Source: Methanosarcinales archaeon (GTDB lineage Archaea; Halobacteriota; Methanosarcinia; Methanosarcinales; Methanogasteraceae). From it: a DNA stretch of 6,184 bases. Made by a program: the position numbers and the translations under genes. Positions within the stretch are counted from its first letter, which is position 1. Each line of letters begins with the position of its first letter. Shown piece after piece: positions 1-6,058 of this stretch. The stretch lies in assembly GCA_030609345.1 (NCBI GenBank), contig JAUWCK010000071.1, positions 1 through 6,184 of the forward strand, in the 5' to 3' direction. The notes below the pieces were generated by a model. It saw only the letters and a list, made by a program, of their open reading frames with translations. It ran no database searches and had not been told where the DNA came from.

Positions 1-276
1 CATCAGCGTACAGGATACTCGAAGGGAGAACTGTACCTGAATGGGATCAATAAAGGAGACCGTGTGCTGGTCGTAGACGATGTGATCAGTACAGGGGGTA
101 CGATGAAAGCGGTCAGCCTTGCGCTCGAACTTGCCGGCGCCGAGGTCTCGGATATCGTCGTGGTCATCGAGCGCGGCGAAGGCGCGGCGGAATTGCGTGC
201 CTCGGGACGTGATGTGAAGACGCTGGTCTCAGTGGATGCGGATGCGGAGGGCGTCACGATCAAATCGGCTCAGTGA
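1..276 (+). CDS. hpt: Hypoxanthine/guanine phosphoribosyltransferase, archaeal type (3' part only)
   Basis: This is the C-terminal 91 residues of a purine-salvage phosphoribosyltransferase; the start lies upstream of the window. The enzyme transfers the phosphoribosyl group of PRPP to hypoxanthine and/or guanine in the cytoplasm. The PRPP-binding signature [13 protein letters not shown] is at visible residues 22-34, with the paired acidic residues and the STGGT phosphate loop. It is preceded by [18 protein letters not shown], which in archaeal HGPRTases sits in the same place. The usual family length is about 180-190 residues, so roughly half is seen. An adenine phosphoribosyltransferase is the main alternative, because the two are close in this lineage; the base specificity cannot be read from this half. 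The stop codon TGA (274-276) overlaps the next gene's ATG by one base, so the two genes are probably co-transcribed and translationally coupled. Confidence 0.87.
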
Positions 277-1175: not shown

Positions 1176-2381
1176 ATGAAGGCGGTTATTCTTGCTGCGG
1201 GTGAAGGGACGCGGTGCAGACCACTGACACTTACGAGATCAAAGGTGATGCTTCCGGTCGCAAACAAGCCAACGGTTGAGTATGTGGTGCAGGCGCTGCA
1301 TGACAGCGGCATCAGAGACATCGTAATGGTTGTTGGGTATGCAAAAGAGCGCATCATGAATTATTTTGGGAACGGGAAGGATTTTGATGTTAATATCGAA
1401 TATGCGGAGCAGAAACAGCAACTCGGTACGGCATACGCGATAAAACAGGTAAAGGATCTCGTGGAGGGCGAATTTCTTGTACTTAACGGGGACAATCTCG
1501 TGAGCGAAGAGACGATTACAGACCTCACAGAGAAACACACGGAAGGTGTATCGATTCTGACAGCAGCAAGAGCGGATGCCACCGGATATGCGCTTGTCGA
1601 GGAGAGGGACGGGAAGGTTCTAAAGATCATTGAGGGTCTAACGCTCAAGGACGTCCACAATGTCAATACAGGCATCTACATATTCGGTCCGGCTATCTTT
1701 GACGCGATCGAGGAGACGCTTAAGTCCGATCTCGGTGAATTCGGGATAACCGATTCGATACAGCGAATGGTCGATGCAGGATATGGGGTACATGCATACA
1801 GAACATATCATACGTGGATGGATGTGATACATTCATGGAACCTGCTCGGTGTGAATGCAAGGATTCTTGAGGACATTTCCGAATCGGTGCACGAAACCGC
1901 GGAGGTGGACGGTAAGATTAAAGGTAGAGTGGTTGTTGGCAGCGGTTCGATTATAGGAGAGGGTTCGTACATCAAAGGTCCCGTGATCATCGGAAGGGAC
2001 TGCGAGATCGGTCCGAATGTGGCCATCGCGCCGTCAACATCCATCGGAGACAATGTCACGATCGAGCCGTTCACATACATCAGGAACAGCGTGATCCTTG
2101 ATAACACGTACATCGGCTCGGGAAGCACCATAAAAAACTCCATTATAGGCGAGAACAACCTCATCGAGAGCCATTTCATCACAGAGAGCGGAAAGAACCT
2201 GATGATAGAACTGGAAGGGATGCTGCACCATGCAGACGAACTCGGCACCGTACTCGGCGATGGCAACAGGGTCGGATGCAACGTCTCGACTGCGGCTGGC
2301 ACGCTCGTTGGAACAGAGTGCAGGATCGAGACTGGTGCAGTCATCAGGAAGCAGATACCACCCCATGCGCTGGTGATGTGA
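1176..2381 (+). CDS. glmU: Bifunctional sugar-1-phosphate nucleotidylyltransferase / N-acetyltransferase (archaeal GlmU type)
   Basis: A 401-residue cytoplasmic enzyme expected to acetylate glucosamine-1-phosphate and join N-acetylglucosamine-1-phosphate to UTP, giving UDP-GlcNAc. The N-terminal nucleotidyltransferase domain (about 1-230) shows LAAGEGTRCRPLT (6-18), SKVMLPVANKP (22-32, K23), QLGTA (82-86), NGD (104-106, metal-binding D106), NTG (164-166) and WMD (214-216, second metal aspartate D216). From about residue 235 to the end is a left-handed beta-helix of hexapeptide repeats with V/I-G-x-x repeats, the acyltransferase fold. The length equals the two-domain archaeal enzymes such as Sulfolobus tokodaii ST0452 (from memory). 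The neighbour glmS makes the amino sugar upstream in the same pathway, which supports GlmU over a plain glucose-1-phosphate thymidylyl- or uridylyltransferase, though these remain alternatives for the N-terminal half. The ATG is fixed by the MKAVILAAG motif. The last codons carry a Shine-Dalgarno sequence (GGTGAT, 2372-2377) for whatever starts at 2383. Confidence 0.88.
   Translation: MKAVILAAGEGTRCRPLTLTRSKVMLPVANKPTVEYVVQALHDSGIRDIVMVVGYAKERIMNYFGNGKDFDVNIEYAEQKQQLGTAYAIKQVKDLVEGEFLVLNGDNLVSEETITDLTEKHTEGVSILTAARADATGYALVEERDGKVLKIIEGLTLKDVHNVNTGIYIFGPAIFDAIEETLKSDLGEFGITDSIQRMVDAGYGVHAYRTYHTWMDVIHSWNLLGVNARILEDISESVHETAEVDGKIKGRVVVGSGSIIGEGSYIKGPVIIGRDCEIGPNVAIAPSTSIGDNVTIEPFTYIRNSVILDNTYIGSGSTIKNSIIGENNLIESHFITESGKNLMIELEGMLHHADELGTVLGDGNRVGCNVSTAAGTLVGTECRIETGAVIRKQIPPHALVM
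2372..2377 (+). promoter_or_regulatory. Shine-Dalgarno sequence inside the glmU 3' end, serving ATG 2383
   Basis: GGTGAT matches the archaeal anti-Shine-Dalgarno complement (GGAGGTGATC) and lies 5 bases before the ATG at 2383. This good site now drives only a 50-codon frame. It suggests that 2383 was the original start of glmS, overlapping closely with glmU, before the intervening 153 bases were gained. Confidence 0.5.
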
Positions 2382-2382
2382 T

Positions 2383-2535
2383 ATGTGCGGCACAATTTTT
2401 TCTCCGAAAAAATTGGATGTTGTCCAACATTCCGCTAACGCCCTGCCCTTCGGGCAGTGGCGTCGATGGATTCCAAAGGAATCCATTACGCTCCAGTTGG
2501 ACTATCGATCTTTGATGATATGGTGGGTGGGGTAA
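2383..2535 (+). CDS. Possible 50-codon upstream ORF (remnant glmS start running into the hairpin element)
   Basis: From ATG 2383 a frame of 50 codons runs to TAA 2533-2535, which directly abuts the glmS ATG (TAAATG). It begins MCGT, nearly the same as the MCGI start of GlmS, then continues through the hairpin region and ends in a tryptophan-rich tail (IWWVG). It has a well-placed Shine-Dalgarno sequence (GGTGAT), so it may be translated. Ribosomes ending at its TAA could re-initiate on glmS. The peptide resembles no family I know and its composition follows from the palindromes, so a functional product is unlikely. If it matters, it is probably as a leader ORF that carries ribosomes through the hairpins. 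Confidence 0.25.
   Translation: MCGTIFSPKKLDVVQHSANALPFGQWRRWIPKESITLQLDYRSLMIWWVG
2393..2520 (+). repeat. Array of consecutive hairpins between glmU and glmS (probable palindromic element or structured leader)
   Basis: Nearly every base belongs to a short hairpin. H1: CAATTTTTTC (2393-2402) pairs with GAAAAAATTG (2406-2415), 10 bp, loop TCC. H2: ATGTTG (2417-2422) with CAACAT (2425-2430). H3: ACGCC plus CTGCCC (2438-2448) with GGGCAG, bulged T, GGCGT (2452-2463), 11 bp, loop TTC. H4: ATGGATTCC (2466-2474) with GGAATCCAT (2478-2486), 9 bp, loop AAA. H5: TCCA with TGGA (2492-2501), weak. H6: TATC-bulged G-ATC (2503-2510) with GATGATA (2514-2520), loop TTT. Three long perfect stems in under 100 bases are very unlikely by chance. 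The stretch has few stop codons in several frames on both strands, which recalls palindromic elements that insert into reading frames. It may be a dispersed genomic repeat, a regulatory leader of glmS, or both; which one cannot be decided from this window. Confidence 0.7.
2396..2401 (+). terminator. Possible oligo-T transcription termination signal after glmU
   Basis: A run of six T, 15 bases after the glmU stop codon, fits the oligo-T signals that end transcription in archaea. It is also the left arm of hairpin H1. If it acts, part of the transcripts would stop before glmS, lowering glmS expression relative to glmU. Confidence 0.25.
2522..2532 (+). promoter_or_regulatory. G-rich ribosome binding region of glmS
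   Basis: GGTGGGTGGGG ends three bases before the glmS ATG at 2536. It contains GGTG steps able to pair with the archaeal 16S 3' end, although it is less standard than the GGTGAT before 2383. It lies at the right end of the inserted stretch, so the present ribosome site of glmS would have been supplied by the insert. Confidence 0.45.
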
Positions 2536-4338
2536 ATGTGCGGCATCGTCGGTTATCTCGGCACATCCGGAGCCATGCCAGTTCTCTTTGATCTTTTGAA
2601 GAAACTGGAGTACCGCGGATACGACTCCGCAGGAATCGCTATCCTGAACGATGAAAATGATGAGATCCGGACATCCAAGACCGAAGGAAGCGTCGATGAC
2701 CTGATATCGATCACGCCTGATCTCGGAGGGCACATCGGAATCGGGCATACGCGGTGGGCAACGCATGGAAAGCCGTCGACCAGGAACGCGCATCCACACT
2801 CTGATGGCACAGGCAGGATCGCTCTTGTCCACAACGGGATCATCGAGAACTATACAGAGATCAAGGACAAATTGATCGATTCAGGTCATGAATTCAGGTC
2901 AGAGACCGACACAGAAGTACTTCCGCATCTGATCGAGGAATATTATGACGGTGATCTCGAATCAGCAGTGCGAAACGCGCTATCGATGGTTCGCGGGTCG
3001 TACGCGCTCGCGGCGATAAGTGTTGATGATCCGGGCAAGATCATTGTCGCGCGGAAGGATAGTCCACTCGTGCTCGGACTCGGGCGTGGCGGGTTTTTTA
3101 TAGCGTCCGACGTATCCGGGATCCTTAAGTACACGAGAGATGTCATCTTCATGAACGATGGGGAGATTGGTGTAATAACAGATTCCGGCATCGATATCAC
3201 GACGCTCGATGGGGTTTCTGTTGAGAAGAAGATCGAAACAATCGAATGGAATCCTGAGGCGGCAGAGAAGAGCGGTTATGAGCATTTCATGCTAAAAGAG
3301 ATATTCGAGCAGCCAGACACCATCAGGGATACGTTTTCAGGAAGAATATCGGCAGACGGGATCGATCTTGGTGTAGCGCTGCCGAACGTCAGGAGGATCG
3401 TGATCATCGCATGTGGAACCTCGTACCATGCCGGGCTCTTTGGGAGGTACGTGATCGAGCGGTTTGCCAGAATTCCCGTCGATGCCGAGATCGCATCCGA
3501 GTTCAGGTACACCGATCCGATCATCGATTGCGGCGATCTCGTGATAGCGATCACGCAGTCAGGAGAGACCGCTGACACCCTTGCAGCGATCAGGGAAGCA
3601 GGATCGAAGGGCAGCCAGAAACTCGGGATCGTCAATGCGCTTGGAAGCAGCATAACAAGGGAGTGCCAGTGCCTCTTCACGAGAGCGGGACCCGAGATCG
3701 GTGTTGCTGCCACCAAATCGTTCACATCGCAACTGGCATGTCTGCTCTTGCTTTCAGTGCAACTCGGTAAAGCGAGAAAGACGTTATCAACGGTAGATGT
3801 AAACGACTTTGTCTACGAATTAAAGCAGACGAGCGGGAACATCCAGCGTGTGCTCAACAGCGCGCCTGACATCCGGGAGTGCGCAAGCATGTTTGCTGAT
3901 GCTGAGCAGTTCCTGTTCATGGGCAGGGGCGCAAACTATCCAGCCGCGCTTGAAGGCGCGCTCAAATTAAAAGAGATCTCCTATATCCCGGCAGAAGGAT
4001 TTCCAGCAGGCGAACTGAAGCACGGTCCGCTTGCCCTGATCTACGAGGGAGTTCCTGTGGTTGCGATAGCGACAAAGGATCCGGTGTACGAAAAGACGCT
4101 TGGGAACATCAAGGAGGTGAAGGCAAGAGGCGCAACCGTCATCGGAATCGCAAACGAGAGCGACACCGAGATTGCGAAATACGTGGACTATGTGCTCAGG
4201 ATACCTGATACCGATCCGTGGATCGCGCCCGTCCTCTCTTCAGTCGTGCTCCAGTTGTTCGCATACTATGTCGCACATCACAGGGGTTGCGAGATCGATA
4301 AGCCGAGAAATCTTGCAAAGAGCGTTACTGTGGAGTGA
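2536..4338 (+). CDS. glmS: Glutamine--fructose-6-phosphate aminotransferase (isomerizing)
   Basis: A 600-residue cytoplasmic enzyme that makes glucosamine-6-phosphate from fructose-6-phosphate and glutamine, the first step toward UDP-GlcNAc. The N-terminal class II glutaminase domain has nucleophile C2 (MCGIVGY), YRGYDSAG (26-33), HTRWATHG (71-78), HNGIIEN (99-105) and SETDTE (122-127). The first SIS domain carries ACGTSYHAG (292-300), TQSGETADT (340-348) and ATKSFTSQ (392-399). The second SIS domain carries GRGANYPAALEGALKLKE (463-480) and GFPAGELKHGP (488-498). The C terminus ends in the family signature DKPRNLAKSVTVE (588-600). It is full length with no lesions. The start is fixed because C2 must follow the initiator Met. 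An almost identical start (ATGTGCGGCA) lies 153 bases upstream in the same frame, separated by hairpins and TAA. The gene is probably co-transcribed with glmU. glmM, needed between the two steps, is not in view. Confidence 0.97.
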   Translation: MCGIVGYLGTSGAMPVLFDLLKKLEYRGYDSAGIAILNDENDEIRTSKTEGSVDDLISITPDLGGHIGIGHTRWATHGKPSTRNAHPHSDGTGRIALVHNGIIENYTEIKDKLIDSGHEFRSETDTEVLPHLIEEYYDGDLESAVRNALSMVRGSYALAAISVDDPGKIIVARKDSPLVLGLGRGGFFIASDVSGILKYTRDVIFMNDGEIGVITDSGIDITTLDGVSVEKKIETIEWNPEAAEKSGYEHFMLKEIFEQPDTIRDTFSGRISADGIDLGVALPNVRRIVIIACGTSYHAGLFGRYVIERFARIPVDAEIASEFRYTDPIIDCGDLVIAITQSGETADTLAAIREAGSKGSQKLGIVNALGSSITRECQCLFTRAGPEIGVAATKSFTSQLACLLLLSVQLGKARKTLSTVDVNDFVYELKQTSGNIQRVLNSAPDIRECASMFADAEQFLFMGRGANYPAALEGALKLKEISYIPAEGFPAGELKHGPLALIYEGVPVVAIATKDPVYEKTLGNIKEVKARGATVIGIANESDTEIAKYVDYVLRIPDTDPWIAPVLSSVVLQLFAYYVAHHRGCEIDKPRNLAKSVTVE

Positions 4339-4415: not shown

Positions 4416-5036
4416 ATGGAAGCTAAACTTATACGGGCAGATATTGTGATAATAGCTTCAGCTCATAATCCGAGCATAATGGCTCCACAATGGCTCAAGG
4501 ATGAATCCTTGATATTGGAAGAACCCAGCCATTTTGTACATACCCCTGATTTAGCTATATTTGAATCGGAGTCTTTTTCATTGGTAGTTGATCATCATCG
4601 ACTGCAAATCGCAGTTAAAAAGCAAGACAATAAGTCATTAAAATCTTTAGCAAATATCGTTAGTAATTATGTAAAATTATTACCTCATATCCCCTACAAG
4701 GCACTTGGTTTAAACTTTATATGGACTATTGAAGTTGATGGTGGAGAGGAACTTCCAAAAATTGAGCTTAACATAAATAAAAGCGATTTAATGTCAGTTT
4801 TCGGGGGTTATGACGTCGATTGTGGTGGTATCATTTACGCAAGAAAAGAACCGTATATGCTTAAAGTTGTTATCGAACTTCAAGGAGGAAATACCATTGT
4901 TCACAATTTCAATTACAATTATGAACTTGAAGACATGTCGGTGGAATATATAGTAAAGTTGATAGATAATTTTTTAACTATGAAAGAAGATTCGTCGAGT
5001 ATTGTCAAAGGTCTTTACGCGATAGGAGAAAAGTAG
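4416..5036 (+). CDS. Uncharacterised protein, first gene of a HEPN-associated cassette
   Basis: A 206-residue soluble protein with no signal peptide or membrane segment. I do not recognise a named family. Visible blocks are ADIVIIASAHNPSIM (8-22), a segment around FSLVVDHHRLQIAV (54-67), and KLLPHIPYKALGLNFIW (87-103), followed by alternating beta-strand-like stretches and a C-terminal helix near 175-190. The HNP, PHxPY and ALGLN patterns look like conserved family blocks, and I have an uncertain memory of similar short accessory proteins (distantly like the sporadically distributed TIGR04255 group). The gene is far more AT-rich than glmS: the 60 bases from 4621 hold only 13 G or C, against 34 in the 60 from 3481. 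This supports acquisition. It stops at TAG 5034-5036, immediately followed by the next ATG, so the two genes are coupled. No catalytic motif is evident; a recognition or antitoxin-like role is speculation. Confidence 0.82.
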   Translation: MEAKLIRADIVIIASAHNPSIMAPQWLKDESLILEEPSHFVHTPDLAIFESESFSLVVDHHRLQIAVKKQDNKSLKSLANIVSNYVKLLPHIPYKALGLNFIWTIEVDGGEELPKIELNINKSDLMSVFGGYDVDCGGIIYARKEPYMLKVVIELQGGNTIVHNFNYNYELEDMSVEYIVKLIDNFLTMKEDSSSIVKGLYAIGEK

Positions 5037-5684
5037 ATGGTCATGCCACATCACACAGGTATCGAAGGGATAGGGACGTCAACAGGAGAGCTGTGGGAAG
5101 AAAGAGAAGCGCTAATGAGCGTTGGCTTTATGGGATCCCCAAACACTTTTTCCAGACTTCAACCTCCCACCACAGCGCCAAATATCTATTCAGTGCATCG
5201 TCCTATTTTTAACACTGTTTCCCAAAGGCTTGCAAGAGGAGAAGAATGGGGGTGCGAGCAATATTATAGCGTTGATCGTGCAAGTAAAAGCTTGCATTCG
5301 CTGATAGATTTGGTTGCTGGCACATCTCGGAATGAAACTTTATCAACTTATCCTACTTCGGATTTACGAAAGTTAGAACAGCATTACATCTTCCGAAATC
5401 GATCCGAAGTTGTGGGGTTTGCTGTGAACAATTCTTTCCTTTTACAGCCGCTCCACGAAGCATACGAACAGATTAGGAATTATTTTGGAGAGTCGGTACA
5501 GGCAGTTCTTGAGGTCGTTGCCGACCCCGAGTTTTTCGAAGATCAGGAATTAGTGATTTTTATTCGCACAGACCTTTCGCCAGATGAAGCTTTTGAAAAG
5601 ATGGAACAGATTGATGACGAATGGTGGTTGAATGTTCCTGCTAATGTGCGGAAAAAGCTATGTATTGATGTGGAATTCATATGA
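5037..5684 (+). CDS. Uncharacterised protein, middle gene of a HEPN-associated cassette
   Basis: A 215-residue soluble protein. Its ATG directly follows the upstream stop codon, with AGGAGA at 5024-5029 as Shine-Dalgarno sequence; ATG 5043 is a weaker alternative. The N-terminal part (1-60) is rich in G, S, T and P and looks loosely structured. A central part (about 60-120) contains WGCEQYYSVDRASKSL. The C-terminal part (about 125-215) looks like a compact domain, with HEAYEQIRNYFG (140-151), VLEVVADPEFFEDQELVIFI (157-176) and DEWWLNV (194-200) before a final strand. The VADPE, D-Q-E-L-V-x-F-I and DEWWL patterns look conserved, and I recall similar unnamed proteins encoded next to HEPN genes in bacteria and archaea, without a function. 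Its end overlaps the HEPN gene by four bases (ATGA), the usual sign of coupled partners, so this is the natural candidate for the protein that binds or controls the HEPN protein. Confidence 0.82.
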   Translation: MVMPHHTGIEGIGTSTGELWEEREALMSVGFMGSPNTFSRLQPPTTAPNIYSVHRPIFNTVSQRLARGEEWGCEQYYSVDRASKSLHSLIDLVAGTSRNETLSTYPTSDLRKLEQHYIFRNRSEVVGFAVNNSFLLQPLHEAYEQIRNYFGESVQAVLEVVADPEFFEDQELVIFIRTDLSPDEAFEKMEQIDDEWWLNVPANVRKKLCIDVEFI

Positions 5685-6058
5685 CTTTCGATTGGTCGGA
5701 ATATTTGAAACTTGCACAGGAACTTGCTGGAGATGGTGCAGGTTCACCGAATGAAGAGGCTAAGTTGCGTTCTTCTATGAGCAGGGCTTACTATGCTGCC
5801 TTTTGTAAAGCACGAAATTACTTACGCGATATCGATGGGTATCAAATTTCACAGCATGTAAACGTTCATAAACATGTTCGAGATCAATTCAAAGATAGTT
5901 CTGATAAGTCACGTAAAAAGATAGGCACTGATCTAGATCGATTGAGAAAACGCAGAAACAAAGCAGATTATGATGATTTTGTAAATAAACTACCACAATT
6001 GACGATAATGTCTTTAAAATCATCTCATAATATTATCTCTACACTAAACACCCTCTAA
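5681..6058 (+). CDS. HEPN domain-containing protein (UPF0332 type), last gene of the cassette
   Basis: A 125-residue all-helical protein matching small HEPN proteins. The N-terminal helix carries SRAYYAAFCKARNYL (34-48), the strong signature of the UPF0332-like group, and a second conserved block is LRKRRNKADYDDF (88-100). HEPN proteins are often RNases or toxins, using an R-x(4-6)-H motif, and are common in toxin-antitoxin, abortive-infection and CRISPR effector systems. Here the equivalent segment is R92-N93-K-A-D96-Y97. The usual histidine is absent from it, as in many RNxADY-type members, so RNase activity cannot be assumed. The ATG at 5681 overlaps the upstream TGA (ATGA), fixing the start and coupling the genes. 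It is AT-rich like its two neighbours. A nucleotidyltransferase (MNT) partner, usual in HepT-MntA pairs, is not present, which sets this cassette apart. Confidence 0.85.
   Translation: MTFDWSEYLKLAQELAGDGAGSPNEEAKLRSSMSRAYYAAFCKARNYLRDIDGYQISQHVNVHKHVRDQFKDSSDKSRKKIGTDLDRLRKRRNKADYDDFVNKLPQLTIMSLKSSHNIISTLNTL

Follow-up and report, generated by a model that had tools for sequence, protein, structure and literature searches.

Nested palindromic elements and a duplicated glmS start at the glmU–glmS junction of a Methanosarcinales archaeon

Results

The window (the whole stretch of 6,184 nucleotides analysed here) carries a glmU-type nucleotidyltransferase gene followed by glmS, and between these two genes lies a cluster of hairpins (Table 1). 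One base separates the glmU stop from a first copy of the ten bases with which glmS begins, ATGTGCGGCA, at position 2383, and the likeness around the duplicated start reaches further upstream, with mismatches, to a total of ~20-30 bp as judged by eye. Elsewhere in the window a gene for a Cas4/PD-(D/E)XK-type nuclease (273-1070) lies upstream of glmU, and the stretch 4416-6055 holds two genes without a Pfam match and then a HEPN-domain gene.

Table 1. Features of the glmU–glmS junction (positions are those of the window)
Feature	Positions	Strand	Details or basis
glmU-type nucleotidyltransferase gene	1176..2381	+	Pfam NTP_transferase and hexapeptide domains; stop TGA 2379-2381
First copy of glmS start, ATGTGCGGCA (duplicated target)	2383..2392	+	Uninterrupted junctions in relatives, e.g. 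L001, G040
Relay ORF, 50 codons and TAA	2383..2535	+	Runs through all hairpins, ends directly before glmS ATG
Element E1: T-rich hairpin, short linker and GTCC/GGAC stem with loop ATTCCGCTACGCTCCA	2393..2503	+	Copies elsewhere; stem covariation
T-rich hairpin of E1	2393..2415	+	Arms 2393-2402/2406-2415, 10 bp, loop 3
5' arm of E1 GTCC stem, GTCCAAC	2422..2428	+	Partner 2496-2502; covariation
Element E2 with flanking TA dinucleotides	2436..2488	+	Hairpins 2438-2463 (11 bp, T bulge) and 2466-2486 (9 bp)
3' arm of E1 GTCC stem, GTTGGAC	2496..2502	+	Exact-stem search
Second copy of ATGTGCGGCA (working glmS start)	2536..2545	+	GlmS alignment to relatives begins here
glmS, glutamine--fructose-6-phosphate aminotransferase, 600 aa	2536..4338	+	Pfam SIS and GATase domains

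A first-pass annotation had described five to six tight hairpins packed between the two genes, and the cluster is indeed real, as its fold lies far beyond that of shuffled sequences both as DNA (-35.9 kcal/mol for 2380-2540 against -17.8 +/- 2.9 in 200 shuffles; z -6.28, none as good) and as RNA (-60.7 against -43.8 +/- 3.9; z -4.28, none as good). When perfect arms of at least 9 bases with loops of 3-8 were sought, the cluster was the sole site in the 6184-base window (three hits, the first hairpin accounting for two), and an average of 0.175 such hits, with 3 at most, turned up in 200 Markov-1 randomisations of the entire window. The stems of 10, 6, 11 and 9 bp that the annotation had listed were recovered; its last stem, of ~7 bp at ~2504-2520, is weak and its sequence is not kept in the corresponding junctions of genomes G041, G039 and G038. 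Besides the T-rich hairpin there are perfect stems at 2417-2422/2425-2430 (6 bp, loop 2), at 2443-2448/2452-2457 (6 bp, extended by folding over the T bulge to 11 bp, 2438-2448/2452-2463) and at 2466-2474/2478-2486 (9 bp, loop 3). The two GC-rich hairpins are enclosed by a 7-bp long-range stem (2422-2428/2496-2502) which competes with the 6-bp hairpin at 2417-2430, and it is the long-range stem, not the 6-bp hairpin, that is repeated in copies elsewhere.

A GlmS scan of public genomes led to locus L001 (G001; 79% identity), where the glmU stop directly abuts ATGTGCGGCATC, and the junction without an insert reads TGA-T-ATG in several relatives. By this comparison of junctions, the hairpin cluster is an insertion between glmU and glmS that duplicated the glmS start, the 143 bp between the two copies of ATGTGCGGCA being extra. 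Among 17 glmS sequences (16 related genomes and the window) the insert is present in six, in a long form in the window, G030 and G026 and in a short form in G041, G039 and G038; full-length matches at the same place are 95% identical in G030 and 89% in G026. The other 11 sequences have no insert, and in ten of them glmU abuts glmS or is close to it, the remaining genome (G037) having other DNA upstream of glmS. On a glmS tree of 176 codons, which is well supported where G038-G041 group with G001 and poorly supported around the window (29-60), the presence of element E1 is patchy. All six glmS copies have a common boundary and a common T-hairpin subtype, CAATTTTTTC, that was not seen in the rpl37ae and fpoJ copies described below, which makes a single old insertion followed by losses a likelier history than repeated insertion; an uninterrupted glmU–glmS junction would return if the direct repeats recombined with each other.

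Element E1 measures 60 bp without the nested E2, and the short form of the insert consists of E1 only. Its stem reads GTCCRRC - RTTCCGCTACGCTCCA - RYYGGAC across copies, with a few departures. A covariance model built from eight copies and run against 185 genomes of the order gave 18 matches at E <= 1e-5 in 11 genomes, eight of these matches being model sequences or identical to them; matches at E 0.05-0.5 in six out-of-clade genomes (G003, G055, G098, G107, G144 and G163) were treated as chance. A search for the E1 loop pattern found seven places in six of the 185 genomes (one match for the control), those in G122 and G138 being unlike E1. A plain DNA search with the window insert matched 18 of the 185 genomes, some at E values (0.004-0.009) that look like chance, and found nothing in G001 and G002, yet G001 has both E1 and E2 by the other searches, which marks the plain DNA search as insensitive.

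E1 also lies next to genes unrelated to glmS. It stands at the start of rpl37ae (Pfam Ribosomal_L37ae) in G031, G032, G034 and G036, and in G026 in a copy that holds a run of N; it also stands at the start of a second fpoJ gene in G032, G027, G001 and G038, an assignment that rests on an NCBIfam FpoJ score of 52.8 bits for a 60-residue piece, under the cut-off of 110. Further copies lie in or beside a nucleotide-sugar dehydrogenase gene, which at least in L252 looks disrupted, and two copies in tandem stand at one contig end. Two contigs of G036 (G036:C58 and G036:C113; L184 and L185) carry a tandem E1 array with units of ~98 bp before rpl37ae and end within it. The flanks of E1 are duplicated not only at glmS: the rpl37ae start of G031 carries a composite of E1 and E2 (94% over 82 nt) within an exact 24-bp direct repeat, GAGGTCTGAATAAATGGTAAAACA, that holds the start codon. 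No terminal inverted repeats are evident in E1.

Element E2 is a net insertion of 51 bp in the window and of 51-54 bp in other clean copies, with the sequence TA(ACGCCCTGCCC TTC GGGCAGTGGCGT CG ATGGATTCC AAA GGAATCCAT)TA between TTCCGC and CGCTCC. The E1 copies without E2 at glmS in G041 and G038 and at rpl37ae in G036 keep a single TA, TTCCGC-TA-CGCTCC being intact, and this empty site shows that E2 was added into the E1 loop. The E2 pattern was found in 21 copies in nine of the 185 genomes, against none for a backward-pattern control, and most aligned copies end in TAATG../..CATTA, which makes for very short inverted ends. Since the rpl37ae and glmS composites have a common E2 subtype, the two elements may have moved together as one composite, or conversion may have acted on it. 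At six places (L106, L108, L109, L120, L122 and L124) E2 has gone into the TA of a hairpin resembling CCCCGCTACTTG-TA-GCGGGG, and a degenerate Y1 transposase fragment lies near E2 in five of these. The whole insert was unmatched in plasmid and phage collections, and a phage or plasmid origin was discarded; three exact matches to the E2-like hairpin pattern in viral contigs were set aside, as by eye they had nothing beyond the pattern common to E2.

Covariation was sought in both elements. For the GTCC stem of E1, 18 copies were used, including those of G030 and G026 in which the stem is broken, and 12 cells were changed on both sides against 4.2 in shuffles, with a score of 0.290 against 0.172; pairs with changes on both sides numbered three, which was not beyond the shuffles (110 of 500 reached it), and neither were further pair types. 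The count refers to the GTCC stem, the T-rich hairpin being excluded because its copies align with shifted gaps, and the set left out the fpoJ copy of G027 (core same as in G032), the rpl37ae copy of G026 (run of N), further units of the G036 array (same sequence), the half copy L252 and all matches above E 1e-5 except a wecC-like one in G026. For E2, 15 of the 22 known copies were used (the window and 14 of the 21 pattern copies), with L109, L114, L120 and L121 left out as near copies of used rows and L110, L118 and L123 because of a degenerate or unclear right half. Here 23 cells were changed on both sides against 7.0 in shuffles, both-side changes occurred in seven of 20 pairs (11 of 500 shuffles get there) and pairing reached 95.7%, slid versions giving 52.1% at the most; further pair types again did not go beyond the shuffles.

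The first copy of the glmS start opens a reading frame, here called the relay ORF, in which the junction can be read through to the real start (Table 1), and the relay ORFs of G030 and G026 have their stop at the same position as in the window. The start codon is duplicated in 13 of the 15 E1 copies at gene starts, and in all 13 the relay frame stays open through the hairpins for 30-50 codons (one crosses the run of N) and has its stop 1 nt before the real ATG, directly at it, or 4 or 7 nt past it. The distances from ATG to ATG are varied (153, 140, 119, 102, 101, 94 and 89), and of the remaining 26 frames of the same inserts, eight end 8 nt or less before the real ATG or run past it. An insert of random sequence with the composition of the window would be open ~31% of the time, a figure calculated for the window insert alone, and copies at one gene are related and leave some six partly independent cases; chance is thus made unlikely solely by repetition over these. 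The other two of these 15 copies, which lie at rpl37ae in G034 and in the tandem array of G036, have no upstream ATG, so the relay ORF is not required everywhere.

We also considered whether the relay ORF encodes a conserved small protein. The relay peptide had no homologue in a database search, and its dN (0.04-0.15) and dS (0.08-0.13) are about equal in four of six pairs, with dN well below dS in the other two on only eight and six differences. The idea of a conserved protein was accordingly abandoned, and in view of this lack of clear constraint on the peptide, selection, if acting, would bear mainly on the open frame and the position of its stop.

Discussion

The reading that we favour, and hold to be likely, is that two short dispersed palindromic elements lie at this junction, E1 having been inserted with duplication of the glmS start and E2 having come to nest in the E1 loop, and that glmS was kept in use through the duplicated start and the relay ORF. 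The insertion and nesting, the dispersal and covariation of the elements, and the duplicated start with its open frame and stop position are shown by the results above. That ribosomes use the relay path, and that this is why the insert is tolerated, are the parts of the reading that we infer. The first-pass annotation had offered a dispersed palindromic element as one of its options, and this was right, or more exactly there are two kinds of element, nested, with copies elsewhere in related genomes; the second copies whose absence would have counted against it were found in relatives. E1 and E2 most likely spread as passengers, with no control role specific to glmS.

Many adjacent genes of archaeal operons are placed for the hand-over of ribosomes, with a start only a few bases from the preceding stop, and in Haloferax volcanii and Escherichia coli reinitiation drops steeply with distance and is nearly lost at ~20 nt, a stop-start distance of -8 to +6 nt being taken by the authors as indicative of reinitiation (all according to PMC10666635). 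DNA that inserts between two genes so arranged should therefore weaken the downstream one. The uninterrupted glmU/glmS junction (TGA-T-ATG) has the geometry of the coupled kind, and an insert of 100-150 bp would break the coupling. With the relay ORF in place, ribosomes ending glmU would start again one base further, at the first ATG, would unfold the hairpins as they translate the relay ORF, and would then restart at the second ATG, which is the real glmS start; these steps are suggested by the geometry of the stops and starts. The insert would thus be tolerated at glmS because the duplicated start brings its own initiation signals and because the relay ORF stops at the real start. All 13 relay stops, including that of the ORF which crosses the run of N, fall within the -8 to +6 nt range, as do stop and start in the coupled archaeal gene pairs described in PMC10666635. 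Unlike in known coupled pairs, the upstream partner here would be an ORF of mobile-element DNA standing between two original partners, and the likeness is one of geometry.

A stronger version of this proposal, which we put forward tentatively and regard as rather doubtful, is that E1, as a mobile element, has adapted to operon junctions, inserting at a coupled stop and start, duplicating the start and re-coupling the downstream gene by its open frame. If this were true, E1 would be a portable translational relay able to invade housekeeping operons (glmS, rpl37ae, fpoJ) without uncoupling them, and might tune the stoichiometry of the two genes. The inserts at the junctions of three housekeeping genes, of which 13 of 15 copies duplicate the start and stay open as far as the real one, point to a simple route by which mobile DNA may settle in a coupled junction.

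A quite different explanation is that the hairpins, in which the first-pass annotation had seen a possible new structured RNA of the glmS leader, form a regulatory RNA which senses an amino sugar, an amino acid or temperature and acts by attenuation or by occlusion of the start site. Its position just before glmS, its strong fold, a T-rich hairpin near the leader start and the retention of the insert at glmS in two sub-clades (six of 17 sequences) would suit such a role. The insert is, however, absent from the other 11 glmS sequences, the same element precedes rpl37ae and fpoJ, E2 has been added within E1, G030 and G026 have a broken E1 stem, and an Rfam search of 2300-2620 gave one chance hit to an unrelated family (14.4 bits against a gathering threshold of 70). 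The covariation that the annotation had proposed to look for does exist, but it goes with the mobile elements at whatever site they occupy and not with glmS. On this distribution and the Rfam result we rejected a riboswitch or other glmS-specific RNA, and a regulatory leader of glmS seems highly improbable. An assembly artefact, in which repeat collapse or a misjoin produced the hairpin cluster, can be virtually discounted: contigs of G036 do break within E1 arrays and one E1 copy of G026 contains a run of N, but the same junction occurs in two further genomes (95% and 89%) and E1 lies at the same boundary in three more.

The remaining alternatives concern what moves the elements. E1 and E2 could be REP-like hairpins moved as single strands by a tyrosine transposase of the IS200/IS605 type, as in REP/RAYT systems, and the two-hairpin architecture with covarying stems, the occurrence of matches to Y1 transposases in all but one of 15 genomes searched and the five places in which E2 sits within an end-like hairpin beside degenerate Y1 fragments all fit this. 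IS200/IS605 elements are not known to make a target duplication, whereas E1 lies between long direct repeats and a TA stands at either end of E2; moreover, among the 30 Y1 loci fetched (of 55 places) none has the E1 loop motif and three have the E2 core, inserted there in a hairpin that looks terminal, and we therefore think this mechanism unlikely. Somewhat less improbable, and still doubtful, is that E2 and the related 48-bp element E3 (see below) are miniature derivatives of an IS630/Tc1-type element, while E1 spreads in some other way, for instance by target-primed copying. TA stands on both sides of most E2 and E3 copies, their inverted ends are short, and a single TA stands at the E2 site where E2 is absent. 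Against this, none of the cores of E1, E2 and E3 is present in the 30 DDE_3 loci fetched from 38 places, of which 11 hold the bare 7-base end TAAYGCC, no more than chance would give for a motif of that length, and there is no DDE_3 match in G029, G030, G031, G033 and G034, all of which have E2 or E3 and may be incomplete genomes. With no linked copy in the 30 loci fetched for each family, neither IS200/IS605 (Y1_Tnp) nor IS630 (DDE_3) was accepted as the mobiliser.

The reading of E1 and E2 as dispersed palindromic mobile elements places them in a known general kind; what is new is the family, the nesting and the arrangement of a relay ORF at operon junctions. In the literature searched, which left most subscription journals outside its scope, we found no report of the E1/E2 family, and we do not claim its absence from print. 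Like the MITEs known in several archaea (PMC10969869), E1 and E2 are short, multicopy and non-autonomous and have target duplications. They differ from MITEs in that no parent transposon was found among the two families searched (Y1_Tnp and DDE_3; 30 loci each), and in that E1 is without evident terminal inverted repeats and has a target duplication that is long (24 bp exact at rpl37ae of G031). REP sequences, tagged GTAG or CGTC, are likewise short hairpin repeats found sometimes within coding regions, and those of the CGTC class apparently have no dedicated transposase (PMC3733652). In that account the GTAG or CGTC is unpaired at one end of the REP, whereas the GGCGTC of E2 has its CGT in a stem, where it varies to CAT; E2 differs further by its TA at both ends, and E1 by its long direct repeats.

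Rickettsia palindromic elements (RPEs), as portrayed in PMC10969869, are short palindromes spread over unrelated genes of related genomes, as is the case here, and insert in frame in genes; E2 is read in frame in the relay ORF, a likeness drawn from description and across domains of life. According to the same source RPEs measure ~150 bp and have a conserved peptide, against 51 bp net for E2, 60 bp for E1 and no clear constraint on the relay peptide, and unlike the RPEs depicted there the present insert precedes a gene and duplicates its start.

A close archaeal parallel to the Rickettsia elements is E3, a 48-bp palindromic element (TAACGCC...GGCGTTA) and sister of E2, with in-frame copies in GlmS itself, an aminoacyl-tRNA synthetase and a DNA polymerase. 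E3 lies in frame, singly or as a tandem pair, at about codon 9 of glmS in L156, L155, L127, L163 and L164 (G026, G030, G031, G029 and G032), the glmS of the window being without E3, and a GlmS entry of 616 aa (P0003) that is 97% identical over the E3-bearing region stands for 70 member sequences. Among L226, L195, L197, L205 and L227, E3 is in frame in genes for the DNA polymerase II large subunit, isoleucyl-tRNA synthetase, carbamoyl-phosphate synthase and a cobalt-type ABC ATPase, and six tandem copies occur in a MinD/ferredoxin-like protein. In all, 36 of 41 E3 copies, which are distinct by flank and partly orthologous, lie within frames of at least 200 codons, and E3 is read in four different frames, which speaks against a conserved encoded peptide. 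A shorter element of ~27 bp net (TAACGCCTCCGGCGTCGACGCTTGCGTTA), the left half of which is common to E3, occurs in L212, L214, L215, L216 and L220. E1 also has a sister of other sequence and the same plan (CAACCTTTTTTCCAAAAAGGTTG-ATCAAAAAC-hairpin) in L258-L264, which in six of the seven loci (L263 differs) follows much the same dockerin-like coding site, a call resting on one piece with a Pfam Dockerin_1 score of 20.5 bits, under the cut-off; in L262 three copies of this sister stand in a 111-bp tandem.
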